A stretch of 64,000 nt of DNA, from the NCBI RefSeq assembly GCF_012935715.1, contig NZ_CP052860.1, forward strand, positions 6,014,001-6,078,000, in the 5' to 3' direction. The notes under the pieces were generated by a model. It saw nothing but the letters and a program-made list of their open reading frames with translations. It made no database searches and was not told the DNA's origin. Each line of letters starts with the position of its first letter. The stretch's first letter is position 1. Position numbers and translations under genes: made by a program. This DNA is from Pseudomonas sp. ADAK13. Lineage in GTDB: Bacteria; Pseudomonadota; Gammaproteobacteria; Pseudomonadales; Pseudomonadaceae. Shown here in pieces: positions 11,921 to 36,257 of this stretch.

Positions 11921-12243
11921 GGGGATGCCTTGGCCAAATGCGGAAAAACGAGGAGTTTGCCCCAAAGTCGCGCCTGAGCGCTATTTTTCTGCCCGCATTG
12001 GCCACATTTACTGCATAAGTTATTGAAAAATATACGAGCGCCTGTGTTTTTCTACAGGTTGCAATGTGCGCTGAAACGCGGCTTCGGCACACCACGACTG
12101 AGTAACACCGGAGGACATTCCTACGCATTCCCGGCACAATGCCTACCTTGTTTCGGGAACTTGCCGAGATTGACGCAACTCATTAGAGGATGGTCTTTCA
12201 ACTGATCAAGACCTGTACCCTCCACTTCTCGGGAACTCTCACT
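11921..12243. other. Intergenic region between divergent signalling genes
   Basis: 323 bases with no supportable gene. It must carry the promoters for the minus-strand hybrid-kinase operon and the plus-strand receiver. I see an AT-rich stretch around 12000-12045 but no convincing promoter pair or dyad. Confidence 0.5.
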
Positions 12244-12786: not shown

Positions 12787-13578
12787 ATGTGCAGGTCATC
12801 GTATCTTCCGGCATTCGTGCTGGCGTCATCCGTGTTGCCTATGTTTGCGGCCCACGCCGATAACGCCGAGACCGCCAACAAGAGCAACAACCCCCTGAAC
12901 CTCGCGCCGGGCGCGAACCTGCAGGATTACTACACCCCCAGGCTCTTCGACAGTAATGCCCACACTAATGACCTGCTGCTGCGAGGCACATTGCCGGTAG
13001 CCCCGTCGGATTTCATTGGCGTGCCCCAGTTACTGCGCGCCACCCTGCCCCTGAGCACCCGTCCCGACCCCCACAGCGGCTACAGCACCGGGATCGGCGA
13101 CCTGAACCTGTTCGATATTTTCCTGCTCAAGACCGACGGCGTGCAGTTGGGCATTGGTCCGCAAATCACCGCGCCCACTGCCGAACACGATGAGCTGGGC
13201 ACCGGCAAATGGCAGGCGGGCCTTGCGGCGGTGGCCATCGATGCGTCGCCCCGTGGCCTGCTTGGCGCACTGGTGCAATACCAAAGCTCGTTCGCCGGGG
13301 ACCGCGACCGGGCTCATGTGGAAAGTGCCACCTTCCAGCCCTTCGTCATGCATAACCTGCCCAAGGGCTGGTACTTGCGCTCCACCGGCACCTGGACCTT
13401 CGACCTGAAGAACGACACCCATTACATCCCGATCGGTTTCGGTGTGGGCAAGGCGTGGAAAGCCGGGACCAATATCCTCAATGCCTACGTCGAACCGCAG
13501 TGGACCGTCGCCCGCAAAGGCGATGGCCTGCCGCAGTTCACCCTGTTTGCCGGGATCAACGTGACGTTTGGGAAATAA
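12787..13578 (+). CDS. Outer-membrane beta-barrel, putative transporter
   Basis: 263 residues with a signal peptide ending near AAHADNAE (cleavage about residue 24-26) and alternating barrel-like strands ending in a C-terminal FAGINVTFGK strand. It shares the segment GP-x4-PTAE-x-D-x-LGTGKW-x-GLA with the barrel encoded at 17408-18445 (GPTAMFPTAEKDVLGTGK), so the two are homologues. Related barrels include the phenol MetA-pathway type outer-membrane proteins thought to import hydrophobic compounds; substrate unknown. The ATG at 12787 is preceded by GGGGAG and opens a good signal peptide, whereas the frame extension to 12715 does not. First gene of the long co-directional run. Confidence 0.75.
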   Translation: MCRSSYLPAFVLASSVLPMFAAHADNAETANKSNNPLNLAPGANLQDYYTPRLFDSNAHTNDLLLRGTLPVAPSDFIGVPQLLRATLPLSTRPDPHSGYSTGIGDLNLFDIFLLKTDGVQLGIGPQITAPTAEHDELGTGKWQAGLAAVAIDASPRGLLGALVQYQSSFAGDRDRAHVESATFQPFVMHNLPKGWYLRSTGTWTFDLKNDTHYIPIGFGVGKAWKAGTNILNAYVEPQWTVARKGDGLPQFTLFAGINVTFGK

Positions 13579-13587
13579 GGAAGTGTC

Positions 13588-15033
13588 ATGCACGCTCTGA
13601 TTCGTAGTGCCGGTTTCTGCCTGTTAACCCTGGCCGCCGGTGTACAGGCACAGCCCCTGGATACACGCATCGGCCCGATCACCATGGAGGGCGAGCTGCC
13701 GGCCCACAGCGAAATTGCCAAGCTGTATGGCGAGCTGGATTTCCAGCAGGCCACCCAGAGTTTTCTCTGGGCCTTGCCGCTGGTGTCCTACGCCCAATGG
13801 CAGGACGAATTCAGCACCAAGCTCGGCGCGCGCAGCGGCGACCTGATGGTGCTGACCACCTACGAAGACAAGCTGGGGGTGATCACTGCCAACGCCACCA
13901 CGCCTTACATTCTCGGCTTCGTCGACCTCAACGAGACCGGCCCGCTGGTGATCGAGCTACCGCCGGGGCCAACAGCCGGCGGTGTCGGCGACTTCTGGCA
14001 ACGGGCAATCATCGACATGGGCCAGACCGGCCCCGACCAAGGCAAAGGCGGCAAGTACCTGGTACTGCCGCCGGGCCAGGAACCCCCCGCCGATGCCGGC
14101 AAGTATTATTTGGCCAAGTCAGAAACCATGAACGTGCTGGTGGGCTTTCGCGTGCTCGACCCCGACCCGGCCAAGGGCAAGGCATTGGTCGAACAATTCA
14201 AGATGTACCCCTACGCCCAACGCGCCAACCCGGCCAAGACCCGCTTGCTGTCCCCTGGCGGCAAACCCTGGTCCGGCACCCAGCCACGGGGCATGGCCTA
14301 TTGGGAGCGCCTGCACGGGATTATCCAGAAAGAACCGGTCAACGAGCGTGACCGCTTCTATATGGCAATGCTCTCCAGCCTGGGTATCGAAAAGGACAAA
14401 CCGTTCAACCCCAACGATCGACAGCGCCAGGCCCTGGAGCAAGGTGCACAGATGGGCGAGCTGATCGCCAAGGCCAACGCCTTCGCCAAGCGTTTCCCCC
14501 AGGCCCAGTACTGGAAAGACCGGCAATGGGACACGGTGCTGAACATTACCGAACCGTCCCAGCGCGTGGCCTACTACGATCAGCTCTGGGAACGCAGCGC
14601 CTGGTTCTATGAGGCCGTGACCAACACCAAGGGCATGGTCTCCAAGACCCCGGGCCTGGGCCAGACGTACCTGGGCGCCTATACCGACAACAAGGGCCAA
14701 TGGCTCGACGGTGGCCAGTCTTACACCCTGCACGTGCCCGCCAACCCGCCGGCCAAGCAGTTCTGGTCATTGACCGTGTATGACATCGCCAGCCGCTGCC
14801 TGATCGACAACCCGCAGCGTAAAGCGGACCTGTCGTCACGCCAGGACCTGAAGAAAAATGCGGACGGATCGGTAGATCTTTACTTTGGCCCTCACGCGCC
14901 AAAAGACTTCGAGAGCAACTGGGTGCAAACTCTGCCCGGCAAACACTGGTTCAGCTATTTCCGACTGTACGCCCCCACCGAGGCCTACTTCGATAAAAGC
15001 TGGAAACTCGACGACATCAGACTGATTCAGTAA
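13588..15033 (+). CDS. Exported DUF1254/DUF1214 protein (first copy)
   Basis: 481 residues with a signal peptide (about 1-21, VQAQPLD). The N-terminal half is DUF1254-like (FLWALPLVSYAQWQDEF, TPYILGFVDLNETGPLVIELPPG). The C-terminal part is DUF1214-like (VPANPPAKQFWSLTVYD, NADGSVDLYFGPHAP, WVQTLPGKHWFSYFRLYAP). The family is widespread in proteobacterial envelopes and has no settled biochemical role. AAGGAAG lies five bases before the start. It sits nine bases after the barrel gene and 12 bases before a second family member, so the two copies are surely co-transcribed. Confidence 0.85.
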   Translation: MHALIRSAGFCLLTLAAGVQAQPLDTRIGPITMEGELPAHSEIAKLYGELDFQQATQSFLWALPLVSYAQWQDEFSTKLGARSGDLMVLTTYEDKLGVITANATTPYILGFVDLNETGPLVIELPPGPTAGGVGDFWQRAIIDMGQTGPDQGKGGKYLVLPPGQEPPADAGKYYLAKSETMNVLVGFRVLDPDPAKGKALVEQFKMYPYAQRANPAKTRLLSPGGKPWSGTQPRGMAYWERLHGIIQKEPVNERDRFYMAMLSSLGIEKDKPFNPNDRQRQALEQGAQMGELIAKANAFAKRFPQAQYWKDRQWDTVLNITEPSQRVAYYDQLWERSAWFYEAVTNTKGMVSKTPGLGQTYLGAYTDNKGQWLDGGQSYTLHVPANPPAKQFWSLTVYDIASRCLIDNPQRKADLSSRQDLKKNADGSVDLYFGPHAPKDFESNWVQTLPGKHWFSYFRLYAPTEAYFDKSWKLDDIRLIQ

Positions 15034-15045
15034 GGACGCAACAAC

Positions 15046-16446
15046 ATGATTCGAACTCCGACGCGCCTGCTGTTGGCGAGCCTCTCGATTCTCATGAGCA
15101 CCGGCGCCTGGGCCGACTTCACCGCGACGCCGAGTGAAGCCCGGGCCATCGCCAAGGAAGCCTACCTCTATGGCTTCCCGGTGGTGGAGATGTACAAGAC
15201 CCTCTACACCCAGGCCGTCGACAAGACCGGGCCAAACTACAAGGCACCGTTCAACCATATCGGCAACACCGCGCAGCTGTTCACACCCAAAGACACTGCG
15301 TTCGTCACGCCGAACTCCGACACGCCCTACTCTTTCGTCTGGCTGGACCTGCGCGCCGAACCGGTGGTGCTGACCCTGCCGAAGATCGAAGACAACCGCT
15401 ACTACTCGGTGCAGTTGATCGACCTCTACACCCAGAACTTCGGCTACCTGGGCACCCGCAGCACCGGCAACAACGGCGGGCACTACATGATCGCCGGCCC
15501 CAACTGGAAAGGTCAGCAGCCCCCCAATGTCGACCGCGTGGTGTACAGCGAAAGCAACATCGCCTACGCGCTGTACCGCACACAGTTGTTCGATGACAAG
15601 GACCTGGGCAAGGTCAAGCAGATTCAAAGCGGCTACAAGGTCCAGACCCTCAGCAACTACGTGAACCAACCCAAACCCGTCAAGCCGCCGAAGATTGCCT
15701 GGCCCAAGCCAACCCCGACCATGAGCGACAGCATCCACCTGTTCCGCTACCTGAACTTCATGCTGGGTTACGCAGCCCCTCAGGACAGTGAGAAAGACGT
15801 GCTCGCGCGGTTTGCCAAAATCGGCGTCGAGGCGGGCAAGCCGTTTGACCTCAAGGCCCTGACAGTTGAGCAACGCAAGGCGCTGGAAGACGGGATTGCC
15901 GACGGCAAGGCCGAATTTGCCGCGTTCAAGAAAGACAAGATCGACACTCACCAGGTTGCCAGCGGTGACTTTTTCGGTTCGCGGGACCACCTCAACAACA
16001 ATTATCTGTATCGCTACGTGGGCGCCAACCTCGGGATCTTCGGCAACTCGACAGATGAAGCCGCCTACTTGAGCTACTTCGTCGACAGCGAGGGCAAACC
16101 GGCCAACGGTGCACGTCACAGCTACACCGTGCATTTTGCCAAGGACCAACTGCCACCGGCCGAGGCGTTCTGGTCGCTGACCATGTACGACGCCAAGACC
16201 AAGCTGCTGGTGCCCAACCTGAAGAAGCGCTACCTGCTCAACTCGCGGATGTTGCCCAACTTCAAGTTTGACGCCGACGGCGGCCTGACCTTGCTGGTGG
16301 CGCACCACGAGCCACCGAAAGCCGAACAAAGCAACTGGCTGCCGGCACCACCCGGCCCGTTCTACGCCGTATTGCGCATTTACCTGCCCAAGCCTGAGGT
16401 AGGTAGCGGCCAATGGAAGCTGCCACCGCTCACACCGATCAAATAG
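15046..16446 (+). CDS. Exported DUF1254/DUF1214 protein (second copy)
   Basis: 466 residues with a signal peptide (about 1-23, ending WADF). DUF1254: EAYLYGFPVVEMYKTLYTQ, TPNSDTPYSFVWLDLRAEPVVL and YSVQLIDLYTQNFGYLGTR. DUF1214: LPPAEAFWSLTMYDAKTKLLV, FDADGGLTLLVAHHEP and FYAVLRIYLPKP. It is the same architecture as the gene just upstream but clearly diverged, so this is an old duplication or a two-component pair and not a recent copy. The start follows AAGGA. Confidence 0.87.
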   Translation: MIRTPTRLLLASLSILMSTGAWADFTATPSEARAIAKEAYLYGFPVVEMYKTLYTQAVDKTGPNYKAPFNHIGNTAQLFTPKDTAFVTPNSDTPYSFVWLDLRAEPVVLTLPKIEDNRYYSVQLIDLYTQNFGYLGTRSTGNNGGHYMIAGPNWKGQQPPNVDRVVYSESNIAYALYRTQLFDDKDLGKVKQIQSGYKVQTLSNYVNQPKPVKPPKIAWPKPTPTMSDSIHLFRYLNFMLGYAAPQDSEKDVLARFAKIGVEAGKPFDLKALTVEQRKALEDGIADGKAEFAAFKKDKIDTHQVASGDFFGSRDHLNNNYLYRYVGANLGIFGNSTDEAAYLSYFVDSEGKPANGARHSYTVHFAKDQLPPAEAFWSLTMYDAKTKLLVPNLKKRYLLNSRMLPNFKFDADGGLTLLVAHHEPPKAEQSNWLPAPPGPFYAVLRIYLPKPEVGSGQWKLPPLTPIK

Positions 16447-16505
16447 CGCCTGATCCAGTAGCACCGCTGCACCCCTGACATCAGGCATTTACAAGGAGTA
16501 GAGCC

Positions 16506-17411
16506 ATGGTTTCACGTAGTCAATTGAGTGCGTTTACCGCCGCCACGCTGGCACTGATGCCAGGGATAGGGTTTGCCGACAATGCCAGGGATTGGCAAAA
16601 CACCCCGACGGACTTGAACATGGTGTTCGGCTACTACAACCGGCTGGACACCAACACGCCGATCGACACCTCGCTGCCGATTACCGGCCTGTCGTTGAAT
16701 GCCGACCTCTATCTGTTCCGCTACGCCCGTTCATTTGGGATTGACGGGCGCAACAGCGCGATCCAGCTCATCCAGCCTTACGCCGATATTTCGGCGTCGT
16801 TCGACAACGCGCAGTTCTTCAGCGGCACCAAGCACAACGGCGGCATGGGCGATACCCAGGTCGTGTTTGCCCACAACTTCTTCGGTGGCCCCGCCTTGAC
16901 GGCCGCCGAATTTGCCAACTGGACGCCCGAGACGTTCCTTACCGGGGCTTTCTGGTTGACGATGCCGACCGGCGACTACGACAAAGACCGCATCATCAAC
17001 ATCGGCTCCAACCGTTGGGTGTTCAAACCGGAAATCGGCTTTGGTACCCCTATTGGCCCGACCTGGCTGGAGATCAACACCTATGTGTCGCTGTTCGGCG
17101 ACAACAAGGATTACCACGGCAACAGCAAGCTCGAACAAAAGCCGCTGTATGCCATTGAAGGCCACTACAGCTACACCATCAACCGTGCGCTTTGGGTATC
17201 CCTGGACGCCACCTACAACCGTGGCGGCGAAAGCAAGATCGACGGCGACTGGCAAGACAACAAGCAGGAAAACGGCCTGCTGGGCGCCAGCCTGGGTTTT
17301 ATGCTGTCACCGCAATTTGGCGGCCTGATCGCCTATAACGACACGGTGTCCGAGCGCACCGGTTCGCCGGATGTAAACACCTGGACCTTCCGCCTGCAGT
17401 ACGTCTGGTGA
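16506..17411 (+). CDS. Outer-membrane transporter of the phenol MetA-pathway family
   Basis: 301 residues with a signal peptide (about 1-24, GIGFADN). The mature protein is barrel-like and contains the family pattern LTGAFWLTMPTGDYDKDR-INIGSNRW-FKPEIGFG and a C-terminal WTFRLQYVW strand. Members lie beside aromatic-degradation genes and are presumed to import hydrophobic substrates; no catabolic genes are present here. AAGGAG lies six bases upstream of the ATG. Its stop overlaps the next gene's start (GTGA). Confidence 0.82.
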   Translation: MVSRSQLSAFTAATLALMPGIGFADNARDWQNTPTDLNMVFGYYNRLDTNTPIDTSLPITGLSLNADLYLFRYARSFGIDGRNSAIQLIQPYADISASFDNAQFFSGTKHNGGMGDTQVVFAHNFFGGPALTAAEFANWTPETFLTGAFWLTMPTGDYDKDRIINIGSNRWVFKPEIGFGTPIGPTWLEINTYVSLFGDNKDYHGNSKLEQKPLYAIEGHYSYTINRALWVSLDATYNRGGESKIDGDWQDNKQENGLLGASLGFMLSPQFGGLIAYNDTVSERTGSPDVNTWTFRLQYVW

Positions 17412-18445
17412 ACAGCGTGCGCTACGCAGCGCTCTATGCCGGGTTACTCGGCAGTGTCGGTGTGTCCGCCGCCAACCTGCCAGACCTTGGCACCGCCTCC
17501 GGCCCGGTTGTCAAAGCCGACGCCGAGACCTGCCACCGCCTGCAGCAAGACTTTGATATCGACCTCAAGCAAGTGGTCAAGGCCGGCTGCGAGCCATCCA
17601 CCGAGCAGATCGCCAAGTTGATGGACAACCCGGTGGGCAACCTCGTGCTGCTGTTCAATCAGTTCGACTACAGCGCCCTAAAGGGCCCCCACAGCAATGG
17701 CACCCGTTACCTGGGCAAATACAGCTTCATGCCCACCTTCCCGATTTCCCTCGGTGAAGACTGGAACCTGATCAACCGCCTGCCCGTCAGCTATGTGAGC
17801 GCACCAGTCAACCAGAAGGCCGGCGACCTGGTAGGCATGAGCCCTTATGGGGTGCTGACCGACCGGGCATTCCCCTCGGTGGTCAATGACCCGTTCGACC
17901 GCACCTCGGGCTTCGGTGACTTGGCTTATGTGGGTGTGTTCTCCCCCAAGCAGCCGGTGCGCTTTGCCAATGGCGGCAAGATGGTCTGGGGCTTCGGCCC
18001 GACGGCGATGTTCCCCACCGCTGAAAAAGACGTGCTGGGCACCGGCAAGTACTCCCTCGGTCCGGCATTTGTAGCCGCCTACCTCGGTGAAGACTGGACG
18101 TTGGGGGTGTTCCCCCAGCATTGGTGGTCGGTGGGCGGCGATGCCCGGCGCAAAGACGTGAGCCTGACCAATATCCAGTACTTCATCCAGCGCAGTATTC
18201 CGGGCCCCAGCCAATGGCGGGTGGGCATGACGCCCAACGTCACCGTCAACTGGAAGGCCGAAGGCGGCAACAAGGTCAACTTCCCCATCGGCCTGGGTGC
18301 CGGGCGGATCGTGTACTTCGGCAAGCTGCCGGTGCGCATTTCCGGCGAGGTGCAGTACTCGGTGATTCACGCCGACGACCTGATCAGCAGCCGCTGGAAT
18401 TTCCGCCTGTCGTTTATCCCGGTGATCCCGACTTTCATGCTTTGA
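17408..18445 (+). CDS. Outer-membrane beta-barrel, homologue of the first cluster gene
   Basis: 345 residues with a signal peptide ending VSAANLP (about residue 22). The mature part has MWGFGPTAMFPTAEKDVLGTGKYSLGPAFVA-like barrel sequence also seen in the 12787 gene, and a C-terminal FRLSFIPVIP strand. The GTG start overlaps the previous stop; a second in-frame GTG at 17417 is an alternative that slightly shortens the signal peptide. Third barrel of the cluster, suggesting the system handles a substrate that must cross the outer membrane. Confidence 0.78.
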   Translation: MNSVRYAALYAGLLGSVGVSAANLPDLGTASGPVVKADAETCHRLQQDFDIDLKQVVKAGCEPSTEQIAKLMDNPVGNLVLLFNQFDYSALKGPHSNGTRYLGKYSFMPTFPISLGEDWNLINRLPVSYVSAPVNQKAGDLVGMSPYGVLTDRAFPSVVNDPFDRTSGFGDLAYVGVFSPKQPVRFANGGKMVWGFGPTAMFPTAEKDVLGTGKYSLGPAFVAAYLGEDWTLGVFPQHWWSVGGDARRKDVSLTNIQYFIQRSIPGPSQWRVGMTPNVTVNWKAEGGNKVNFPIGLGAGRIVYFGKLPVRISGEVQYSVIHADDLISSRWNFRLSFIPVIPTFML

Positions 18446-18457
18446 ACGAGGTGCGCC

Positions 18458-19210
18458 ATGCGCAGTTTTCAGTGCACACGCGTGTTGTTGATCGGCCTGA
18501 TATTCAGTGCCCATACCGCGGCCTGGGCCGACGAACTTGAACCCAAGGCCCTGACCGCCCTGGAGCAGATGGGCGGCTACCTGCGCAGCCTGCAACAGTT
18601 TCGCATCGACGCCCACAGCCACACCGACCAGGTGCTGGATAACGGCCAGACCATCGAATTCAGCCACCAGACCCGCCTCGTGGCGATGCAACCGGACAAG
18701 CTGCAAGTCTCGGTGGAAAGCGACGGTGAACGGCGCAGCCTGTTCTACAACGGTAAAAGCTTCACCCTGTACGACAGCCGCAGTGGCTACTTCGCCAACC
18801 AGTTAGCCCCGGCGAACATCGGCGGGCTGCTGGATCAATTGAGCGAGCGCTATGGCATCGAGTTGCCCCTGGCCGACCTGTTCCGCTGGAACCCCGGCAC
18901 CGCCAGGGAGGTGGGCATCAGCAACGCCGTGCTGATCGGCAGCGAAACCATCGACGGCCAGACCTGCACCCACTACGCCTACCGCCAGCCGGACATCGAC
19001 TGGCAACTGTGGATTCGCCAGGGCCCGCAGCCGTTGCCATGCCGGCTGGTCATCAGCCGCCGCGACACCGCCGAACACCCTCGGCACAGCGTCAACTACC
19101 TGTGGCAACTCAACAGCCCGCCCGCCTCCAGGGACTTTGAGTTCAGCCCACCGGCCGGCGCCCGCGCGGTCCCCCTGCAACAGCTGGAGCCTCAGGGAGA
19201 ACAGCCATGA
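18458..19210 (+). CDS. Exported DUF2092 protein
   Basis: 250 residues with a signal peptide (about 1-22, HTAAWADE). The DUF2092 pattern is clear: LEQMGGYLRSLQQFRIDAHSHTDQVLDNGQ, TRLVAMQPDKLQV, RRSLFYNGKSFTLYD and IDWQLWIRQGPQPLPCRLVISRR. The fold is of the LolA/LolB type, which binds lipid-like ligands; a carrier for a hydrophobic periplasmic molecule would fit the barrels upstream (inference). GAGGTG precedes the start. The stop overlaps the next ATG (ATGA). Confidence 0.82.
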   Translation: MRSFQCTRVLLIGLIFSAHTAAWADELEPKALTALEQMGGYLRSLQQFRIDAHSHTDQVLDNGQTIEFSHQTRLVAMQPDKLQVSVESDGERRSLFYNGKSFTLYDSRSGYFANQLAPANIGGLLDQLSERYGIELPLADLFRWNPGTAREVGISNAVLIGSETIDGQTCTHYAYRQPDIDWQLWIRQGPQPLPCRLVISRRDTAEHPRHSVNYLWQLNSPPASRDFEFSPPAGARAVPLQQLEPQGEQP

Positions 19211-19788
19211 AAAGCACGGCGGCGGTGCTGACCGCGAGTTTGCTCCTGACGCTGTTCGACCCGCTGGCCGCCCAGGCCTGGCAACTGCGTGGCGGTGGCG
19301 GCGCACGGACGTTTGTGGTGCCCCATGGTGGTGGCGGCGGTTACCGGCCGCCAATGCCTGCGCCGCACCCGATGCCCGCGCCCCGGCCAATGCCGCCGCA
19401 CCCGGAGCCGCACCCGCAGCCCCATCCTCAACCAGCACCGCACCCCGAGCCCGGGCCGCATCCGTATCCAGGCCCGGGACCACAACCTGGCCCACATCCT
19501 TATCCGGGACCGGGGCCACAACCGCATCCGATGCCGCCACCGCCACCGCCTCCACCGCCTCCGCCACCCCACGGAGATGACTGGTACCACCCGTGGGCGA
19601 CCGCAGCCGTCGTCGGCGCCACCACGGCGACCCTCCTCGCCATCGGTACCCGCGTGACCACGGTGCCGGTGGATTGCGTCTCGGTGGTCGCCAATGGCGT
19701 GGCCTACCAGCACTGCGGGCCCACGTGGTACCAGCCGCAATACGTCGGCAGTTCCGTGCAGTACATCGTGGTCGCCGCGCCCTGGTGA
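19207..19788 (+). CDS. Exported His/Pro-rich protein
   Basis: 193 residues. A signal peptide (about 1-25, AAQAWQ) is followed by a Gly-rich patch and then a long Pro/His tract (about residues 48-122) built from PHP, PMP, PGPGPQP and HPYPGPGP units, ending in a run of about 12 prolines. The C-terminal 65 residues (from GDDWYHPW) form a compact region with one hydrophobic helix (AAVVGATTATLLA) and two cysteines. The His spacing suggests metal binding or a periplasm-spanning rod. Function unknown. Coupled at both ends to its neighbours. In the DNA the tract is C-rich and repetitive. Confidence 0.75.
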   Translation: MKSTAAVLTASLLLTLFDPLAAQAWQLRGGGGARTFVVPHGGGGGYRPPMPAPHPMPAPRPMPPHPEPHPQPHPQPAPHPEPGPHPYPGPGPQPGPHPYPGPGPQPHPMPPPPPPPPPPPPHGDDWYHPWATAAVVGATTATLLAIGTRVTTVPVDCVSVVANGVAYQHCGPTWYQPQYVGSSVQYIVVAAPW

Positions 19789-19812
19789 CCCACTGTTTCA
19801 AGGATGATTGTG

Positions 19813-20787
19813 ATGACAGCGCTCAACGATTTAACCGCCCTGCAAGCCAGCATCGCCGAAAGCGTACTGGGCCAGGACCAGGTGATCCGGCAGATCCTCA
19901 TCGGCCTGCTGGCCAACGGTCATTTGCTGCTGGAAAGCCTGCCGGGGCTGGCCAAGACCCGCACGGTCAAGGCCCTGGCCCGGCACCTGGATGCGAAGAT
20001 GAGCCGTATCCAGTTCACCCCCGACCTGCTGCCCTCGGACATCACCGGCGCCGAAGTGCTGCACCAGGTGGACGGCCAGAACCAGATCCGCTTCCAGCCC
20101 GGCCCCTTGTTCGGCAACCTGATCCTCGCCGATGAAATCAACCGCGCCCCGGCCAAAGTCCAGGCGGCGTTGCTCGAAGCCATGGAAGAACGCCAGATCA
20201 CCGTGGCCGGTGCCAGCCACCCGCTGCCCGAGCTGTTTATCGTGGTCGCCACCCAAAACCCCATCGAACAGGAAGGCACTTATCCGCTGCCGGAAGCGCA
20301 GATGGACCGGTTCCTGATGAAAGTCCTGCTGGATTACCCCAGCGCCGACAACGAAAGCCAGGTGCTGCGCCTGCTGCGCGAAGAAGAACAGCACGCCGCC
20401 ACCGCCGCGACCCAGGGCTTCACCCTGGCGCCCGAGGTGATCTTCGCCGCACGCAAGGAAGTCAGCGCGATCCAGGTGTCCCCCGCCATCGACCGCTACC
20501 TGATCGACCTGATCAACGCCACCCGCCATCCCGCCGACTACGACGCCGACCTGGCGCGCTGGATCAGCCTCGGCGCCAGCCCCCGTGGCGGCATCGGCCT
20601 GGACCGCGCCGCCCGCGCCGATGCCTGGCTGCAAGGCCAGGCCTTCGTCACCCCGGACAACGTGCGCACGGTGGCGCATCCGGTGCTGCGTCACCGCCTG
20701 CAACTGAGCTACGACGCGGTGGCCGATGGCGTCACCGCCGACCAGGTGCTGGACCGCTTGCTGGACAAAGTGGCGATACCGGCATGA
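19813..20787 (+). CDS. MoxR-family AAA+ ATPase
   Basis: 324 residues. Walker A is SLPGLAKTRT (about 42-51, the GLAKT variant normal for MoxR), Walker B is NLILADEINRAP (about 102-113), and sensor 1 is VVATQNPIEQEGTYPLPEAQ with the arginine finger region MDRFL. MoxR ATPases act as chaperones with VWA-domain partners to activate or mature exported enzymes. The ATG at 19813 has AAGGA about eight bases upstream; the ATG at 19804 is too close to that site. ATGA overlap with DUF58 downstream. Confidence 0.92.
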   Translation: MTALNDLTALQASIAESVLGQDQVIRQILIGLLANGHLLLESLPGLAKTRTVKALARHLDAKMSRIQFTPDLLPSDITGAEVLHQVDGQNQIRFQPGPLFGNLILADEINRAPAKVQAALLEAMEERQITVAGASHPLPELFIVVATQNPIEQEGTYPLPEAQMDRFLMKVLLDYPSADNESQVLRLLREEEQHAATAATQGFTLAPEVIFAARKEVSAIQVSPAIDRYLIDLINATRHPADYDADLARWISLGASPRGGIGLDRAARADAWLQGQAFVTPDNVRTVAHPVLRHRLQLSYDAVADGVTADQVLDRLLDKVAIPA

Positions 20788-21719
20788 ACGCCGACGGCCT
20801 GGTCTATGTGTCCCTGGGGCAGTTGATGGCCTTGCAGTTCCAGACCCGCGGCCTGAGCTTTGTCGCGCGCCAGCCCCAAGGCAGCATCCTCGCCGGCAAC
20901 CATGCCTCACGGCTGCGCGGGCGCGGCCTGAACTTCGATGAGCTGCGCCGCTACCAACCCGGCGATGACCTGCGCCACCTGGACTGGCGTGCCTCGCTGC
21001 GCACCGGCAAACCGGTGGTCCGCACCTTTACCGAAGAGCGCGACCGCCCGGCGCTGATCGTGGTCGACCAGCGCATGTCGATGTTTTTTGGCTCGGTGCG
21101 CAGCTTCAAATCCGCCGTCGCCGCAGAGTTGGGCGCATTGGCGGCGTGGATGGTGTTCAACGCCGGCGACCGGGTCGGCGGCCTGGTATTCAACGATGAA
21201 CGCATCGACAGCGTGGCGCCGTTGCGCAGCCGCAAACGTGTGGAAACGCTGTGCAGCCGAATCGTCGAACAGAACGCCACCCTGAGCGCCTCCAACCCGG
21301 ACCACGAAGCCGACGGCCAACTCGACAAGGTGCTGCAACAGTGCCTGGCGCTGGCCGGGCATGACCATTTGATCTGCCTCGTCAGTGACTTCGCCGGGGC
21401 CGGTGAGCGCACCCTGCAATTGATGCGGCAGCTGTCGGCCCACAACGACGTGATCGCCCTGCAGGTCTACGACCCGCTGGCGCTCAACGTGCCGGACAGC
21501 GGGCACCTGATGGTTACCCAGGGCCAGTTGCAGGTCGAACTGGCGGTACAGAAACGCCAGGTGCGCCAGCCGTTGGGCGACTTTCTCGGTGGCCGCCTCA
21601 AAGACGTCGCCAGCCTGCTGCGCCGCAGCCAGGTGCCGTTGTTGATGATCAGCACCGCGCTGCCCGCCGTTGACCAACTGCGCGATGAACTGGGCCGGCG
21701 CGCGGGAGCGCGGCGATGA
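20784..21719 (+). CDS. DUF58 protein of the MoxR/Bat module
   Basis: 311 residues. It has the DUF58 signature FDELRRYQPGDDLRHLDWRAS (about 52-72) followed by RTFTEERDRPALIVVDQRMSM. The latter is the degenerate VWA-like strand; the full MIDAS DxSxS is replaced by DQRMS. DUF58 proteins nearly always sit beside moxR and are thought to bridge ATPase and substrate. No membrane helix. ATGA overlaps on both sides indicate tight co-translation. Confidence 0.92.
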   Translation: MNADGLVYVSLGQLMALQFQTRGLSFVARQPQGSILAGNHASRLRGRGLNFDELRRYQPGDDLRHLDWRASLRTGKPVVRTFTEERDRPALIVVDQRMSMFFGSVRSFKSAVAAELGALAAWMVFNAGDRVGGLVFNDERIDSVAPLRSRKRVETLCSRIVEQNATLSASNPDHEADGQLDKVLQQCLALAGHDHLICLVSDFAGAGERTLQLMRQLSAHNDVIALQVYDPLALNVPDSGHLMVTQGQLQVELAVQKRQVRQPLGDFLGGRLKDVASLLRRSQVPLLMISTALPAVDQLRDELGRRAGARR

Positions 21720-22183
21720 ACAGCCATGTGCCGAGCATCGAACAGCTCAAGGAGATGGGCTTGCCTGCCCCGACCAGCTATTGGCCGCAGACCTGGGGCT
21801 GGTGGGCGCTGCTGGGGTTGCTGGCAATTGCCTTGCTGGCGCTGGGCATCCGCGCCTGGCTGCGCTGGCGGCGCAATGCCTATCGCCGCGAAGCCTTGGC
21901 GCGCCTCAACGCGCTCGACGACCTGCGCGAATTGCCCGAACTGCTCAAGCGTGTAGCCCTGTCGATGCCCCTTGCGCCGCAGGAGCACCAGCGCGTGCCG
22001 ACCTTGAGCGGCGCCGACTGGCAGGCATTCCTGCTGCGCCACGCCGGTACCCCGCTGCCGGAGGACTTCAGCCGCCAACTGGCAAGCCTTGCGTATGGCT
22101 TGGCGGATGTTTCCGGCGCCCAGCGGGAACAGCTGTTGGCCCAGTGCAAAGCCTGGGTGGAGCATCATCATGTGGCAGCTTGA
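21716..22183 (+). CDS. DUF4381 small membrane protein of the MoxR/Bat module
   Basis: 155 residues with one membrane helix (WWALLGLLAIALLALGIRAWL, about 23-43) and a cytoplasmic helical tail with LSGADWQAFLLRHAGTPLP. The family is found only in MoxR-DUF58-VWA operons, in this same position. It overlaps the next gene by 14 bases. Exact role unknown. Confidence 0.88.
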   Translation: MNSHVPSIEQLKEMGLPAPTSYWPQTWGWWALLGLLAIALLALGIRAWLRWRRNAYRREALARLNALDDLRELPELLKRVALSMPLAPQEHQRVPTLSGADWQAFLLRHAGTPLPEDFSRQLASLAYGLADVSGAQREQLLAQCKAWVEHHHVAA

Positions 22184-23177
22184 TTACCCCTGGCTGTTGC
22201 TGCTGCTGCCGCTGCCGTGGCTGGCCTACCGTTACCTGCCGGAATACCGCGAAGCCCGCAGCGCCGTACGCGTGCCGTTCTTTGCCAGCCTCAGCCGGGC
22301 TGTCGGCCAGACGCCGGCAGCCAGCGGCATTCGCACCAACCGCCGGCAACTGCTGCTCAACCTGCTGGTCTGGGCGTTGCTGGTGCTGGCCATCGCCCGT
22401 CCGGTGTGGATCGAAAAACCCATCGAACGCCAACAGCCGGTCCGTGACTTGATGCTGGCCATCGACATTTCCCAGTCCATGGAAACCCAGGATTTCACCG
22501 ACGCCAACGGCCAGAAGATCAACCGCCTGGCTGCCGTCAAACAAGTGGTGCACGGTTTTATCCAGCGCCGCAAGGATGACCGCATCGGCCTGATCCTGTT
22601 TGGCAGCGGCGCCTATCCCCAGGCACCGTTGACCCTCGACCATGCCAGCCTGTCGCTGCTGCTGGACGACAGCGGCATCGGCATGGCCGGGCCCAACACC
22701 GCGATTGGCGATGCGATCGGCCTGAGCCTGAAACTGCTGGACCAGGCCCATGAGCAAGAGAAAGTGCTGATCCTGCTTACCGATGGCAACGACACCAGCA
22801 GCGCGATCCCGCCGGACCATGCAGCGTCGATGGCGGCCGCCAAGGGCGTGGTGATTCATACCATCGGCATTGGCGACCCTGACGCCTCGGGTGAAGCCAA
22901 GGTCAACCTCAGCGCCCTGCAACAGATTGCCGACGCCACCGGCGGGCGGTATTTCCGCGCGGAAAACCGCAACACCCTGGACCAAGTCTACGCCACCCTC
23001 GACCAGATCACCCCGCACCAAGTGAACACCCTGAGCCACCAGCCCAAGCGTGACCTGTTCTGGATGCCCCTGGCGGCGGCCATTGGCGTACTGGCGCTGT
23101 ATCACTTGATCGCCGCCTTGTGGCCGCACCTGAGTCAGCGCCATCGGGAGGCCCGCGATGGAACTCAACCTCAGTGA
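22170..23177 (+). CDS. Membrane VWA protein, BatA-like
   Basis: 335 residues: helix at about 5-20, a second at about 60-77, the VWA domain with intact MIDAS LAIDISQSME (D99, S101, S103), TDGNDTSS and IGIGDP, and a C-terminal helix (about 295-315). The VWA faces the periplasm or cytoplasm between helices as in BatA. The start is the ATG at 22170 inside the end of the DUF4381 gene; the longer in-frame extension lies over that gene. It overlaps the next VWA gene by 20 bases. Confidence 0.9.
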   Translation: MWQLDYPWLLLLLPLPWLAYRYLPEYREARSAVRVPFFASLSRAVGQTPAASGIRTNRRQLLLNLLVWALLVLAIARPVWIEKPIERQQPVRDLMLAIDISQSMETQDFTDANGQKINRLAAVKQVVHGFIQRRKDDRIGLILFGSGAYPQAPLTLDHASLSLLLDDSGIGMAGPNTAIGDAIGLSLKLLDQAHEQEKVLILLTDGNDTSSAIPPDHAASMAAAKGVVIHTIGIGDPDASGEAKVNLSALQQIADATGGRYFRAENRNTLDQVYATLDQITPHQVNTLSHQPKRDLFWMPLAAAIGVLALYHLIAALWPHLSQRHREARDGTQPQ

Positions 23178-24657
23178 CTTCCACTTCCTGCGCCCGGCCT
23201 GGCTGCTGCTGGGGTTGTTCGGCTTGTTGCTGCCGCTGCTGTGGCGTCGCAGCAAGGACCTGCAACGTCGGCTGCGGGGCAATATCGCGCCTCATCTGTT
23301 GCCGCATTTGCTGCTCACGCCGACGGACCCTCATCGCCTGCGGCCGGTGCACCTGGTCAGCGCCTTGCTGGTCCTCGGCGCACTGGCCAGTGCGGGCCCT
23401 ACCTGGGAACAGGACCGCCCCGATTTCCTGGAAAACCGCGCGCCGCTGATCATCGCCCTCGACCTGTCGCCGTCCATGGACACCGCCGACGTGCCGCCTA
23501 CCCGGCTACAGGCCGCCAAGCACAAGCTGCAAGACCTGGTACAGCGCCGTCAGGGTGCGCGCACTGCGTTGATGGTGTACGCCGGCAGCGCACACCTGGT
23601 ATTGCCGCCAACTGACGACCCGGCGCTGCTGGACAGCTTTATCCAGGCCCTGGCCACCGACCTGATCAGCAAACCCGGGCGGGATGTGGCCGGGGTGATC
23701 GACCAGGCCAAGCTTTTGCTGGCGGCCGAAAAGGCCCCAGGCAGCCTGTTGCTGATCACCGATGGCGCCGACCTCGCGCAGCTGCCGCAGCTCAAGCAAC
23801 ACCTCGCAGACAGCCCGTTGCAGGTGCTGGTACTGGCGGTCGGGGTGAATTTCGACGCCGGCGCGTTGAAGCAACTGGCGGCCGCCACCGACGCACCACT
23901 GGGCAGCCTGACCCTCAACGATGACGATCTGGACTGGGTTGAGCTGCACGCCCAACAGCATTTCCAGAACGCCGACGAACAACAGCGCAACCTGCAATGG
24001 AAGGACGCCGGCTATTGGCTGTGCTGGCCGCTGCTGCTGTTGGCGTTGTTCAGTGTGCGCCGGGGCTGGAGCCTGAACTGGATGGCGGTGCTGGTGCTGG
24101 GGGTGTGCCTGCAACCGGCACCCGCCGAGGCCAATGCCCTGACCGACGCCTTCTTCACCCGCGACCAACAGGGCCGCTGGGCCTTCGAGCACCATCACTA
24201 CCCCGCCGCTGCCGCACTGTTTGTCGACCCGTACTGGAAAGGCATTGCCGCCTACAACGCCGCCGACTACGACCTGGCCCTGACCACCTTTTCCCAGCTC
24301 GACACCCCGCAGGCCGCGTTCTACCGGGGCAATATCCATGTGCGCCGCTTCAAGTTCGACGATGCCATCGCCGCCTATCAACAAGCCCTCCAGCAACAAC
24401 CGCAGTTCCCCGAAGCCAGCGCCAACCTGGCCCTGGCATTGGCGCTGAAAAAGGACACCGAAAACGCCTCGGACAACGCCCCCGAGGTCAAACCCGATGC
24501 GGTCAAGTTCGACAAGGCCGCCGGCAAGGGCAAGAGCAAGACGATCCAGACCGAACAGGCGAGCAACGATGCGTTGTGGTTGCAGAACCTGACCACTTCC
24601 CCGGCGAACTTCCTGCGGCGCAAGTTCAGCCTGCAAGACCAGGGAGCCCAGCCATGA
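23158..24657 (+). CDS. Membrane VWA protein with C-terminal TPR, BatB/BatC fusion-like
   Basis: 499 residues. Helices at about 13-30 and 62-80; the VWA domain has an intact [15 protein letters not shown] (D102, S104, S106) and ITDGADLAQ; a pair of helices near 285-330 is followed by a TPR ([42 protein letters not shown]). In Bacteroides and Leptospira, BatB (VWA) and BatC (TPR) are separate, so this gene joins them. The charged Lys-rich tail contains [17 protein letters not shown]-type overlap with the BatD-like gene. Confidence 0.9.
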
Positions 24658-25703
24658 ACCGTCTCTGCTGGCTGTTGCTGCTGGTCGCGGGCCCGTTATG
24701 GGCGGTCGAGCCGCAACTGAGGGTGCAGGCGCAATTGGTGCCGGGCAACAACGTGGTGGTGGGCGAGCAGGTGCAACTGCAGGTCGATGTGTTGACCGAC
24801 AGTTGGTTCACCGCCGCCGCCAGCCTGCCGCCGCTGCACCTGAACGGTGCGCGGGTGCAGGCGCCGGACGGTGAGTCCGAGCACCTGAACCAGGTGATCG
24901 AGGGCAAGACCTTCTACGGCATGCGCTACCGCTACCGCATCACACCGGCCGTGGCCCAGACCTTTACCATTCCGGCGCTGACGGTGCAGGCCCAGCCCGG
25001 TCAAGCCAGTGCGCCCTTGAGTGCGCAGACTGCACCGCTGTCGTTCCAGGCCACCCAGCCGCCGGGGTTCGATCCCGGAGAAAGCGTGTTGGTGGCCGAG
25101 GGTTTGCGCCTGACCCAGACGGTCAGCACCCCACCGCTCAAGGTCGGCGACACCCTCACCCGCACGCTCACCCTGCAAGCCGACAACACCCCCGGCCTGT
25201 CCCTGCCGCCGCCTGACCAAGCGCAGGTAAAAGGCCTGCGCCGCTACCCGCAGTCGCCGGTCATCAGCAACCTGGATGATGGGCGCGGCAACATCAGCGG
25301 CGGCCAGCGCATCGACCGGCTGGTGTACCGCGTCGAGCAAGCCGGCAAATACACACTGCCCGCCATCAGCGTGAAATGGTGGGACAGCCGCAACCATCGC
25401 CTGCAAATCACCCGAGTGCCTGAGGTCACCCTCGAGGCAACAGCGGCGAGCGCCTACACTCCGGCATTTTCCATCGCCGAAGACCTCAAGCAGCTCGGCC
25501 AACACAGCCGCTGGCAGTTGTCGCGCCACGGGTTGGCCTGGGGCTCTGCGTTGGTGGTGCTGGTGCTGGCGGCGTACCTCGTACATGGCATCTGGCCACG
25601 TATTCCGCCGCTGTGGCGACGTGGCTGCGAGGCATTGCGCTGGCTGTTTCGTCGACTACGCTTGCTACCACTGAACCCCCGTCGCGAAAAGGATTTCCCA
25701 TGA
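24654..25703 (+). CDS. BatD-like protein
   Basis: 349 residues: signal peptide (about 1-17, PLWAVEP), a periplasmic Ig-like region with [20 protein letters not shown] and the repeat module [20 protein letters not shown], one membrane helix ([16 protein letters not shown], about 295-312) and a short basic cytoplasmic tail. This is the BatD/oxygen-tolerance architecture, in a shorter form than BatD of Bacteroides. The ATG at 24654 opens the signal peptide; the upstream in-frame extension overlaps the VWA gene and has no homology. ATGA overlap with the HAD gene. Confidence 0.87.
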
Positions 25704-26701
25704 CGTCCCTCCGTTCTGTCCTGCCCCTTCTCCTGCTTATCAGCCTGCCTGCCCTGGCCACCGACCCGCTGCCCTCGTGGAACGACGGCCCGAGCAAAAA
25801 ACACATCATCGAATTCGTCCAGGCCGTCACTGCCGAAGGCTCCCGGGACTACGTAAAACCGGCCGAGCGCATCGCCGTATTCGATAACGACGGCACGCTG
25901 TGGACCGAACAACCGGCGTACTTCGAGGTGCTGTTTGCCTTCGACGAAATCAAGCGCATGGCCCCCCAGCACCCGGAGTGGAAAACCACCCAACCGTTCA
26001 AGGCCGTGCTCGAAAACGATCACCAGGCCTTGGCCCAAAGCGGCATGGAAGGCCTGCTGAAAATCATCGGCGCGACCCATACCGGCCTCACCACCGACGC
26101 CTTTATCGACAACGCCAAAACCTGGCTCGCCCAGGCCCGCCACCCGAAAACCGGCAAGCCCTACACCGAGATGATCTACCAGCCGATGCTGGAAATGCTC
26201 GACTACCTGCGCAGCCAGCAATTCAAGACCTACATCGTTTCCGGCGGCGATACCGCCTTCATGCGCGCCTTTGCCGAAGTGGTCTACGGCGTGCCACCGG
26301 AACAGGTGATCGGCTCCAACTTTGTCACCGCCTTCCAGATCAAGGACGGCGCCCCGCAGGTACTGCGTACCGCCAAGCTTGCCCACAACGACGATGGCCC
26401 GGGCAAACCGGAAAGCATCGATTCGATCATAGGCCGCCGGCCGGTCCTGGCTTTCGGCAACTCCGACGGCGACCTGCAAATGCTCCAGTGGACGGCCGCA
26501 GGCCCGGGCAAGCGCTTCATGGGCCTGGTGCACCACACCGACGCCAAGCGCGAGTGGGCCTATGACCGCAACTCATCGATCGGCCGCCTGGACAAGGCGC
26601 TGGATGAAGCAAAGACAAAAGGCTGGAACGTGGTGGACATGGCGACCGAATGGAACCGTATCTACCCCTTCGAGCCGGCTGTGCAAAAGCAGGTGCAATA
26701 A
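25700..26701 (+). CDS. Exported HAD-family phosphatase
   Basis: 333 residues. Signal peptide (about 1-20, LPALATDP). The HAD motifs are complete: motif [10 protein letters not shown] (nucleophile D62, acid D64), motif [10 protein letters not shown], the lysine region and motif [15 protein letters not shown]. The fold is phosphoserine-phosphatase-like, but the export signal points to a periplasmic substrate. Its ATG overlaps the BatD stop, so the MoxR/Bat module and this enzyme are one translational unit, making it a candidate client of the module (inference). Confidence 0.85.
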
Positions 26702-26777
26702 GAAAAGACGTCGCGATGGACTGTAATAAACGTTGGTCGCAGGCAATGCGACTCAAGCCGAGAAAGGAGCAAGTCAT

Positions 26778-28364
26778 ATGACTCGCAGATGCAAGTGGCT
26801 ACCGAAGCTCGCCCTGGTGGCGGCCTCGGTAATGGGGATCTCGGCGTTAGCCGGGGCCGCCGAAAAACCCAATATCCTGGTGATATTCGGTGATGACATC
26901 GGGCAAACCAATATCAGCGCGTACTCAATGGGTGTGGTGGGCTACAAGACCCCGAACATCGACCGTATCGCCAAAGAAGGCATGATGTTCACCGATTACT
27001 ACGCGGAGAACAGCTGCACCGCCGGGCGCTCATCCTTTATCACAGGCCAGACGCCGTTGCGCACAGGCTTGTCCAAGGTGGGGATCCCGGGTGCACCGGT
27101 AGGCCTGCAAAAACGCGACATCACCATCGCCCAGGCGCTTAAAGGCCTGGGCTATTCCACCGGGCAATTCGGCAAGAACCACCTGGGGGACAAGGATGAA
27201 TACCTGCCCACCAACCACGGTTTCGACGAGTTCTTCGGCAACCTGTACCACCTCAACGCCGAAGAAGAGCCGGAGCGTCCGTACTGGCCCAAGGATGACG
27301 CCGAGTTCGTCAAGGCCAACACCCCGCGTGGCGTGATCCACAGCTTCGCCGACGGCAAGATCGAAGACACCGGCGCCCTGACCGCCAAGCGCATGGAGAC
27401 CATCGACGACGAAACCACGGCCGCCGCCCAGGCGTTCATCAAGAAACAGGCCGAAGCCAACAAACCGTTCTTCGTGTGGATGAACACCACGCGCATGCAC
27501 GTGTTCACCCATGTGCGTGACTCGATGAAGGGCCAGAGCGGCATGCCCGGCAACGAATACGCAGACGGCATGCTGGAGCACGACGGTGATGTGGGCAAAC
27601 TCCTGCAAACCCTCGACGACCTGAAAATCGCCGACAACACCATCGTGGTCTACACCACCGACAACGGGCCGAACCAGTTCTCGTGGCCGGACGCGGCCAC
27701 CACGCCGTTCCGCAACGAGAAAGACTCCAACTGGGAAGGCGCCTACCGGGTGCCGGCGATCATTCGTTGGCCAGGCAAGATCAAGCCCGGCGAAGTCTCC
27801 AACGAAATGGTCTCGGGCATGGACTGGTTCCCTACCCTGCTGGCCGCCGCGGGTGACGCGGACGTGAAAGACAAGCTGCTCAAGGGCTGGGCCCCGACCG
27901 CTGGCGGCAGCAACTTCAAGGTGCACCTGGACGGTTACAACCAACTGCCCTACCTGACCGGCCAACAGCCCAAAGGCGCACGTCACGAGTTCTTCTACTT
28001 CAACGACGACGGCGCGCTGGTGGCAGTGCGTTTCGACAACTGGAAAGTGGTGTTCGCCGAACAGCGCCAGCCGGGCGGTTTCCGGGTGTGGAGCGAACCG
28101 TTCGTGCAACTGCGGGTGCCGAAGATCTTCAACCTGAGGATGGACCCGTATGAGCGGGCGGACGTGGTGTCTGACCAGTACTACGACTGGAGCACCAAAA
28201 ACGTCTACCTGGGTGCAGTGGCGGTGACCAAATCGGCGAAGTTCCTCGAGACCTTTATCGAGTACCCGCCGAGCCAGAAACCGGCCAGCTTCAGCATCGA
28301 CCAGATCCGCGCCGCCGTGGACAAGAAGATTGATGAAAAAATGAAGGCTAACCCGGCGCAATAG
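26778..28364 (+). CDS. Exported arylsulfatase-family hydrolase
   Basis: 528 residues with a signal peptide (about 1-27, ALAGAAEK). Metal ligands appear in NILVIFGDDIGQTNISAYS (D39, D40) and YTTDNGPNQ. The active-site motif is SCTAGRSSFITGQ with C80, the residue to be converted to formylglycine; Ala replaces the more usual Pro at the third position (C-x-[PA]-x-R). No formylglycine-generating enzyme is in the window. AAAGGAG lies about 10 bases before the ATG at 26778; an in-frame start at 26733 lacks a site. It follows the HAD gene by 76 bases. Sulfatases release sulfate from organic esters; substrate unknown. Confidence 0.9.
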   Translation: MTRRCKWLPKLALVAASVMGISALAGAAEKPNILVIFGDDIGQTNISAYSMGVVGYKTPNIDRIAKEGMMFTDYYAENSCTAGRSSFITGQTPLRTGLSKVGIPGAPVGLQKRDITIAQALKGLGYSTGQFGKNHLGDKDEYLPTNHGFDEFFGNLYHLNAEEEPERPYWPKDDAEFVKANTPRGVIHSFADGKIEDTGALTAKRMETIDDETTAAAQAFIKKQAEANKPFFVWMNTTRMHVFTHVRDSMKGQSGMPGNEYADGMLEHDGDVGKLLQTLDDLKIADNTIVVYTTDNGPNQFSWPDAATTPFRNEKDSNWEGAYRVPAIIRWPGKIKPGEVSNEMVSGMDWFPTLLAAAGDADVKDKLLKGWAPTAGGSNFKVHLDGYNQLPYLTGQQPKGARHEFFYFNDDGALVAVRFDNWKVVFAEQRQPGGFRVWSEPFVQLRVPKIFNLRMDPYERADVVSDQYYDWSTKNVYLGAVAVTKSAKFLETFIEYPPSQKPASFSIDQIRAAVDKKIDEKMKANPAQ

Positions 28365-28552: not shown

Positions 28553-28622
28553 AACAAGCCCCCTCACCACAACAATCTCTTTCGCCACATTTTGATCCGT
28601 GTTCCCTATAAGGCTATTTGCA

Positions 28623-31187: not shown

Positions 31188-31859
31188 TTAACCCTTTTTA
31201 AGCTTCAGGTACGACTGATGCAGGTCCGAAGCCCAGCCGTCGATGACGCTCTTCACGTCATCGGCCTTCATCACCTGGGAGTCGTTCGACAACGGCTTGC
31301 CGGTGCCTTTGCGCACGACCTGGGCGACTACTTTGCCGCTGTCGCCATCGAGGAACTGGGCTTCGGTGCCCAGGGTGGTTTCCTGGTCACGAATGCCGGT
31401 GCCGGTGCTCACCGCTGCGGCCACCAGGGCCACGGGAATGTACTCATACGGCTTGAGGCTTTCGGTCTTGCTGCTGACGGCCGTGATCGCCGCCCGCACC
31501 ACAATCACACCCGGGCCAGGCCCGTTGGCCAGTGGCAGGGACTTTTCCAGCTCACGCTTGAGCGCCTGGTTGTAGTAGGTGTTGATGCCCTGCAAGGTGC
31601 TGTCCGGAATCTTGGTGGTGGCTTGCGGCTTGGGGTAGTACTGGGTGGGCTCGATGTACACCGCGGTATACCGGCTCAGGTTCAGGTCGGGATCTACCCA
31701 ACGCATTACCTCAGCGCCTGACGGTGACTTGGCCTCCTTCAGGTGGCTGTAGTCGGAGAGAAACCCGGAGTATTCATCCGGCTGCGTCACCTTGCTGGAA
31801 CACCCCACCGCCCCGATCGAGGCAATGCACACCGTGCCGATCATTAGTCCTAGCTTCAT
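31188..31859 (-). CDS. DUF3313 lipoprotein
   Basis: 223 residues. A lipobox sits at IGAVGCSSK (Cys about residue 20). The body has the DUF3313 pattern YSGFLSDYSHLKEAKSPSGAE, YTAVYIEPTQYYPKPQ, VIVVRAAITAVSSKTE and an AQFLDGDSGKVVAQVV ending. The fold of this family is that of small envelope lipoproteins; role unknown. It is transcribed toward the fused transporter gene, which ends 72 bases away, and diverges from the cytochrome gene. Confidence 0.85.
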   Translation of the reverse strand: MKLGLMIGTVCIASIGAVGCSSKVTQPDEYSGFLSDYSHLKEAKSPSGAEVMRWVDPDLNLSRYTAVYIEPTQYYPKPQATTKIPDSTLQGINTYYNQALKRELEKSLPLANGPGPGVIVVRAAITAVSSKTESLKPYEYIPVALVAAAVSTGTGIRDQETTLGTEAQFLDGDSGKVVAQVVRKGTGKPLSNDSQVMKADDVKSVIDGWASDLHQSYLKLKKG

Positions 31860-32054
31860 CGTCGAACTCCCTGGCTGTCATCGAAGGAACACTGAGCTGT
31901 AGGTATAGCCAACTCTGGAAAAATCGCCCGCCCCGCGTGGCAGGTTGGGAGCTATTTCACAGCACGGATTTGACAGGCATGCGCTCAACGTCAAAGCTGC
32001 ACGAAGCTTAAGCGCGCCGTTAGAGCGTCAATGCATCGGACATCGGAAGTCGTA

Positions 32055-36251: not shown

Positions 36252-36257
36252 CCTCAC

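Follow-up and report, generated by a model that had tools for sequence, protein, structure and literature searches.

A distinct MoxR/Bat paralogue linked to a sulfatase and a HAD hydrolase in Pseudomonas sp. ADAK13: a candidate chaperone set for two putatively exported enzymes

Which enzymes do Bat-type MoxR/VWA sets serve? To our knowledge, the clients of these sets are poorly known, and a locus of Pseudomonas sp. ADAK13 raises the question for a set that stands directly beside a HAD hydrolase and a sulfatase. The window analyzed here is the whole 64,000-nucleotide stretch at positions 6014001-6078000 of a single-contig 7.3-Mb genome (G000), in which 15 co-directional genes on the + strand span 12787-28364. 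An earlier note on this DNA had recognized the shared direction, counted 14 genes and proposed a single envelope system; the direction and the unit of MoxR/Bat, HAD and sulfatase stood up, whereas the gene count and the upstream DUF1254, barrel and DUF2092 genes as an obligatory part did not. MoxR/Bat, HAD and sulfatase are tied together by gene content, gene order, paralogue specificity and co-distribution. With slightly better than even confidence, we read the locus as an accessory sulfatase locus in which a putatively exported CTAGR sulfatase and HAD hydrolase are served by a MoxR/Bat chaperone set of their own.

The genes in question are those for a MoxR AAA+ ATPase (19804..20787), a DUF58 protein (20784..21719), a DUF4381 protein (21716..22183), a BatA-like VWA protein (22170..23177), a BatB-like VWA protein with TPR (23158..24657), BatD (24654..25703), the HAD hydrolase (25700..26701) and a type I sulfatase (26778..28364), all on the + strand. 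A Pfam search of the window proteins matched MoxR (PF07726), DUF58, DUF4381, VWA twice (once with TPR), BatD, HAD and sulfatase and, further upstream, DUF1254 with DUF1214 twice, PF13557 and DUF2092, in agreement with the identities first suggested for the DUF1254 pair, DUF2092, MoxR/Bat, HAD and sulfatase. A MoxR AAA_3 ATPase, DUF58, two VWA proteins and BatD, the components of a MoxR/VWA (Bat) module, thus lie in one run. From MoxR onwards, the stop-to-start distances are -4 (to DUF58), -4 (DUF4381), -14 (BatA), -20 (BatB), -4 (BatD), -4 (HAD) and +76 (sulfatase) bases. Neighbors overlap at eight of the ten junctions between 16506 and 26701, as had been described, and the coordinates bear out the reported coupling of BatD and HAD, whose stop and start share ATGA (4-base overlap). 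The conserved block extends past 28364 into 28599-31115, where an MFS-like part is fused to a spermidine-synthase-like domain (28599..31115, +), and we define the conserved core as MoxR-DUF58-DUF4381-BatA-BatB-BatD-HAD-sulfatase plus this fusion, which comes after the sulfatase in most core loci. The gene order was seen again in many loci, and the arrangement is therefore not due to chance.

We compared 119 Pseudomonadaceae genomes, using PF14316 (DUF4381) as the marker of MoxR/Bat sets. PF14316 was matched in 118 of them, with at least two matches over the cut-off in 16; a second match in G013 (24.6 bits) fell below the cut-off and was excluded as a second set. The window genome carries an ordinary MoxR/Bat set at 5294795 in addition to the window set. 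HAD was present in 16 of the 119 genomes, exactly those with at least two DUF4381 matches (naive Fisher test across the 119 genomes, ignoring kinship, 3.7e-20), and the window sulfatase (E<=1e-60) in 17, namely the same 16 and G100. The presence of HAD was patchy within all five genera having it. Stretches of up to 20 kb picked through DUF4381, independently of the enzymes, yielded 16 sets whose MoxR, like that of the window, belongs to a sulfatase-associated (type-2) clade. The sulfatase lay within the stretch in all 17 type-2 sets, the window included, and HAD adjoined BatD in 14 of them (exceptions: L008, L023, L024). Among the PF14316 matches of the family, these 16 type-2 sets and 25 other sets were read and the remainder compared by coordinates only; that remainder had no HAD or sulfatase match within 20 kb.

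The ordinary Pseudomonadaceae set has the same genes in the same order (MoxR-DUF58-DUF4381-BatA-BatB-BatD), with a MoxR about 50-55% identical, but differs in its separate MoxR clade, in having no HAD or sulfatase beside it and in being near-universal (118/119 genomes with PF14316). Neither enzyme was found in the stretches read of 27 MoxR/Bat loci of this other clade, comprising seven initial control loci (L021, L022, L025, L030, L033, L198 and L199) and 20 added DUF4381 places, 11 of them in one genus (g5), whose DUF4381 scores approached the window set's. The MoxR proteins of the 20 added sets were 50-55% identical to the window MoxR, and none of these sets had HAD or sulfatase. In a MoxR tree of 50 rows, a single branch (support 100/99) split 43 rows from sulfatase/HAD loci from the seven others; a tree that included the added controls but fewer near-copies divided 28 from 27 rows, again at 100/99. 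Both trees omit near-identical Pseudomonas rows, are midpoint rooted and contain some long branches. The window MoxR, which is 98% identical to that of the Pseudomonas sp. locus L034, falls outside the clade of the near-universal (housekeeping) copy on this 100/99 branch. The earlier note had named genomes routinely carrying MoxR/Bat without HAD, sulfatase and DUF1254 as evidence against its reading; such counter-examples exist for the ordinary set and for DUF1254, and none of the type-2 sets in the loci read lacked both HAD and sulfatase.

Both enzymes carry Sec-type hydrophobic leaders at their N-termini, as read by eye, and are therefore probably exported. The HAD hydrolase, which has a solved relative (4ovy), retains the motifs DNDGT, SGG and GNSDGD, and D62, D64, D256 and D258 are invariant in nine sequences; we take these residues to be the DxD nucleophile and acidic motif IV of HAD phosphatases. 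The sulfatase combines a PF00884 domain with CTAGR, an instance of the type I motif (C/S)-X-(P/A)-X-R as given in PMC6189696. Its relatives in the protein collection (best 120 of 7877) were named, where named, just arylsulfatase or sulfatase. In one genome, G068 (L008 and L009), two of the three DUF4381 sets are type-2, and the window sulfatase has seven matches at E<=1e-60.

The linkage was also followed outside the family. From a HAD-alignment scan of named genomes we kept the best 80 loci (more exist), of which 38 are from Pseudomonas; the others include Achromobacter, Bordetella, Bosea, Bradyrhizobium, Variovorax, Planctomycetes, Desulfobacterota, Nitrospira and Ignavibacteria. The MoxR/Bat set, or whatever part of it the contig holds, accompanied HAD in 36 of the 38 Pseudomonas loci, and MoxR was present in eight of the 42 others (Achromobacter L072-L075, Bordetella L092, Bosea L076 and L080, Bradyrhizobium L090). 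Within the Bordetella family, HAD was found in 32 of 200 genomes. We read 31 HAD stretches, two of which (L232, L242) run into contig ends; the 32nd genome, G493, is the source of L092. MoxR was present in 13 of the 31, the sulfatase in 22 and the Cys-pair motif of a formylglycine-generating enzyme (FGE) in 18. All 13 stretches with MoxR contain the Cys-pair motif and have the order FGE-MoxR-DUF58-BatA-BatB-BatD-HAD-sulfatase; in 12 of them a DUF4381 was recognized. A sulfatase-maturing enzyme here lies within a MoxR/Bat-HAD-sulfatase run, which speaks for the account we favor. Nitrobacter, Bradyrhizobium and Bosea have rearranged yet linked versions; that of Nitrobacter (L197) reads FGE-sulfatase-MoxR/Bat-sulfatase, with no HAD in the stretch. 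The loci L034-L113 and L231-L261 were collected through HAD and are uninformative on whether MoxR sets lack it, and the four short FGE loci L157-L160 come from genomes already represented by L075, L076, L092 and L072. A Pfam tally of 84 of the 248 unlabelled neighbors within 6 kb of non-Pseudomonas HAD, together with one barrel, found no family in more than two of the 85 proteins.

NorQ/NorD, CbbQ/CbbO and RavA/ViaA have nitric oxide reductase, rubisco and respiratory complexes as their clients. BatA, BatB and BatD presumably span or face the periplasm and would form a natural link from a cytosolic ATPase to exported enzymes. The window set resembles those three pairs in that they too are MoxR-type AAA+ proteins with VWA partners adjoining a client enzyme, in part according to PMC9976466; unlike them, its neighbors are putatively exported hydrolases and its VWA set is of the larger Bat type. 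That source describes remodelling of clients by other MoxR/VWA pairs, and it is because of this analogy that we infer a remodelling role for MoxR/Bat. In the proposed mechanism, the cytosolic MoxR ATPase and its DUF58 partner, together with the VWA proteins BatA and BatB, DUF4381 and BatD, would form a dedicated machine that remodels its client so that a metal or another active-site feature is installed or kept, the clients most likely being the sulfatase and/or the HAD. The separate parts of the locus are of known kinds, and the new element is the paralogue-specific coupling, of which we found no description in the open-access literature, a body that omits most subscription papers. So tight a link between a paralogue and one sulfatase/HAD pair offers a concrete, testable client for a Bat-type MoxR/VWA set, and the coupling may shed light on how certain bacteria activate their sulfatases.

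Several observations weigh against a dedicated chaperone set. L008 is a type-2 set without HAD; in G046 and G082 (L023, L024) HAD is unlinked to the type-2 set, its 20-kb stretch containing nothing else of the core; and two of the 38 Pseudomonas HAD loci (L042, L061) have no MoxR/Bat in the stretch. Outside these lineages, HAD and sulfatase are commonly paired with no MoxR/Bat inside 10 kb, and therefore neither enzyme requires the set in general. Adjacency is no physical interaction, MoxR is expected to be cytosolic whereas both enzymes look exported, and the set might serve the nearby fusion protein or a cytochrome instead.

One alternative concerns sulfatase activation: type-2 MoxR/Bat may be the missing activator in FGE-less Pseudomonas, making or installing formylglycine or an alternative cofactor in CTAGR. 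FGEs of the Achromobacter, Bordetella, Bosea and Bradyrhizobium loci, among others, retain GGSxLCxxxYC, whose two cysteines we take to be the catalytic pair. This pair was absent from all 25 PF03781 matches in 16 of the 17 sulfatase-bearing Pseudomonadaceae genomes, and the remaining one, G094, rated 100% complete, had no PF03781 match at all. The anaerobic sulfatase-maturing enzyme (anSME, TIGR03942) exceeded the cut-off in just one of the 17 (G107); some match, weaker or stronger, occurred in 14, and that of G094 (~112 bits) is a quinohaemoprotein amine dehydrogenase maturase (629 bits). In the window genome, the two PF03781 proteins both lack the Cys pair, and anSME gave no match. CTAGR is kept in 9/9 aligned sulfatases and in 75 of 78 motif matches (pattern count over L007-L113), with three others. 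In PMC6189696, a P. aeruginosa sulfatase made in E. coli carried 95% formylglycine, the E. coli machinery was called unidentified, and a third bacterial maturation route was acknowledged as a gap, citing Benjdia 2007. With no Cys-pair FGE detected and anSME over its cut-off in one genome alone, an activation route independent of both enzymes probably exists in Pseudomonas. Since the known maturases were, apart from one anSME, not detected while the modified-cysteine motif is kept, these genomes are good ones in which to seek the third route reported from E. coli in PMC6189696.

If MoxR/Bat took the place of FGE, it would be a candidate for this third bacterial route in Pseudomonas. The FGE-sulfatase pairs of Achromobacter/Bordetella-type loci, in which a type I sulfatase and FGE lie in one run, differ from the situation in the 17 Pseudomonadaceae genomes, where no Cys-pair FGE was detected and MoxR/Bat and HAD are added. 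The Bordetella-family loci with MoxR, however, hold a Cys-pair FGE in 13 of 13 cases. G158, screened for FGE and MoxR, combines a CTAGR sulfatase with a best PF03781 locus lacking the Cys pair, and MoxR went undetected there at 1e-60. Moreover, the window genome encodes three further sulfatases with the motifs CSPTR, CAPSR and CGPSR, which makes a more general route likely, and no MoxR/VWA chemistry yielding formylglycine is known to us. In a class search, the sulfatase was found at 1e-130 in 14 of 370 genomes, the window's included, and three of the other 13 had no MoxR at 1e-60. These 13 belong to a group of 23 further sulfatase or HAD genomes, in which 30 PF03781 loci were read; a Cys-pair FGE turned up in 12 of the 23 and was missing from the other 11, the latter judged on each genome's best-scoring locus. 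FGE replacement by MoxR/Bat was accordingly demoted as the leading account, as Bordetella-family loci carry FGE and some sulfatase genomes gave no MoxR at 1e-60, and we now regard it as improbable.

The dedicated chaperone set must also be weighed against simple inheritance of a neighborhood, in which MoxR/Bat and the enzymes travel together as genes useful in the same habitat, with no chaperone-client relation. Patchy presence fits this: within the window's genus, 13 genomes were sampled and one has HAD. The pairwise distances of MoxR, BatB, HAD and sulfatase correlate at 0.83-0.97 (54 loci, species kinship ignored), which shows co-inheritance, not interaction, and the values for HAD, MoxR and BatB (0.93-0.97) are as co-inheritance alone would also predict. 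Yet the linkage survives rearrangement in Bosea, Bradyrhizobium and Nitrobacter, the 4-base BatD/HAD overlap recurs in 22 of the 55 loci whose BatD-HAD distance was measured, and the MoxR clade is paralogue-specific; we consider mere co-travel unlikely, though not far-fetched. Alternatively, the client could be the MFS/spermidine-synthase fusion or a multihaem cytochrome, with sulfatase and HAD in the same pathway. All 13 DUF4381-picked loci with HAD beside BatD (L007, L009-L020) have the fusion after the sulfatase, as does the window, and membrane metalloenzymes are among the MoxR clients named in PMC9976466. Against this, both fusion and cytochrome were unseen in Nitrobacter L197, Bradyrhizobium L090 and L076 (one of two Bosea stretches), where MoxR/Bat still adjoins a sulfatase, and such a client seems to us quite improbable. 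An anti-phage MoxR-VWA conflict system was also considered and rejected; ten proteins gave two partial defence-model matches only (DolB and mad2, 16.7 and 21.3 bits).

The remaining seven genes of the run form a variable upstream module, all on the + strand: barA (12787..13578), DUF1254a (13588..15033) and DUF1254b (15046..16446), both DUF1254+DUF1214 proteins and the latter with a solved relative (3u07, VPA0106), a PF13557 (Phenol_MetA_deg) outer-membrane channel (16506..17411), barrel3 (17408..18445), a DUF2092 periplasmic protein (18458..19210; Pfam, 2.7e-62) and a Pro/Gly/His-rich protein with an N-terminal hydrophobic leader (19207..19788). Their stop-to-start distances are +9, +12, +59, -4, +12 and -4 bases in this order, and +15 to MoxR. 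barA and barrel3 had no Pfam match at E<=0.01. Their AlphaFold models (mean predicted local distance difference test 61.2 for barA and 68.6 for barrel3) are mostly strand, and the best Foldseek matches are outer-membrane barrels, including FapF and the COG4313 channel 4rl8; for barA, FapF was best and 4rl8 followed at E 2e-2. Both are thus predicted, with modest confidence, to be outer-membrane barrels.

Upstream regions were compared across 63 loci with a MoxR at least 55% identical, which are partly non-independent (L009 and L063, whose MoxR rows are identical, are probably one locus). In the 16 showing at least 7 kb upstream of MoxR, same-strand relatives were found once each for barA, DUF1254a and the window PF13557 barrel and twice for DUF1254b, and in none of the 16 for barrel3 or DUF2092. 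A barA relative was upstream of MoxR in 10 of the 63 loci, an alternative PF13557 barrel (C10) in 23, and a FadL-type channel was divergent from MoxR in L011 and L015. The conserved core and the upstream genes are therefore two separable parts, not one 14-gene system, and the variable module rules out a single unit of all 15 genes. A second DUF1254 pair lies near 5.909 Mb of the window genome, with a C10-like barrel beside it (L029, 27.9% identity) and no core gene in its 20-kb stretch; DUF1254 plus barrel therefore looks like a reusable module, here placed before the core. The barrels near the core match COG4313/PF13557 channels (4rl8, P. putida F1) and FadL; unlike a fixed channel, which one is present differs by lineage. 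Such channels suggest something hydrophobic as substrate, and the upstream module probably imports or binds a hydrophobic compound; import of a sulfated or phosphorylated one would fit the COG4313/FadL-type channels. The Nitrobacter stretch (L197), however, showed none of the searched-for barrels. DUF2092 occurred in 10 loci of HAD and other surveyed stretches, with its usual Pro/Gly/His-rich companion in nine; this pair also lies beside a sulfatase-FGE-barrel group in L187.

Downstream of the fusion, the window encodes a convergent DUF3313 protein (31188..31859, -), frequent in P. fluorescens-type loci, and a multihaem cytochrome c with TPR (32031..34307, +), which follows the block in P. fluorescens-type loci. 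In distant lineages (L089, L105, L182, L193), too, such a cytochrome lies close to genes for a sulfatase or HAD. The HAD locus of Pseudomonas mandelii (L042:1-20990) has DUF1254, DUF3313 and cytochrome relatives and no MoxR/Bat or sulfatase in the stretch, and looks as if the core had been lost. A Beta-lactamase-family protein (PF00144) and then MipA occupy 34419-37061. A terminator-like scan of the window gave 23 matches versus 16.1 (standard deviation 4.4) in shuffles, and a promoter-like scan 1 versus 2.3. An ARAGORN call of tRNA-Thr(agt) at 49750-49843 (-) lies inside a long + open reading frame (48229-49965) and is probably false. Directly upstream of the run, at 8423-12603, a hybrid CHASE3/GAF histidine kinase (-) and a short response regulator (+) are possible regulators.

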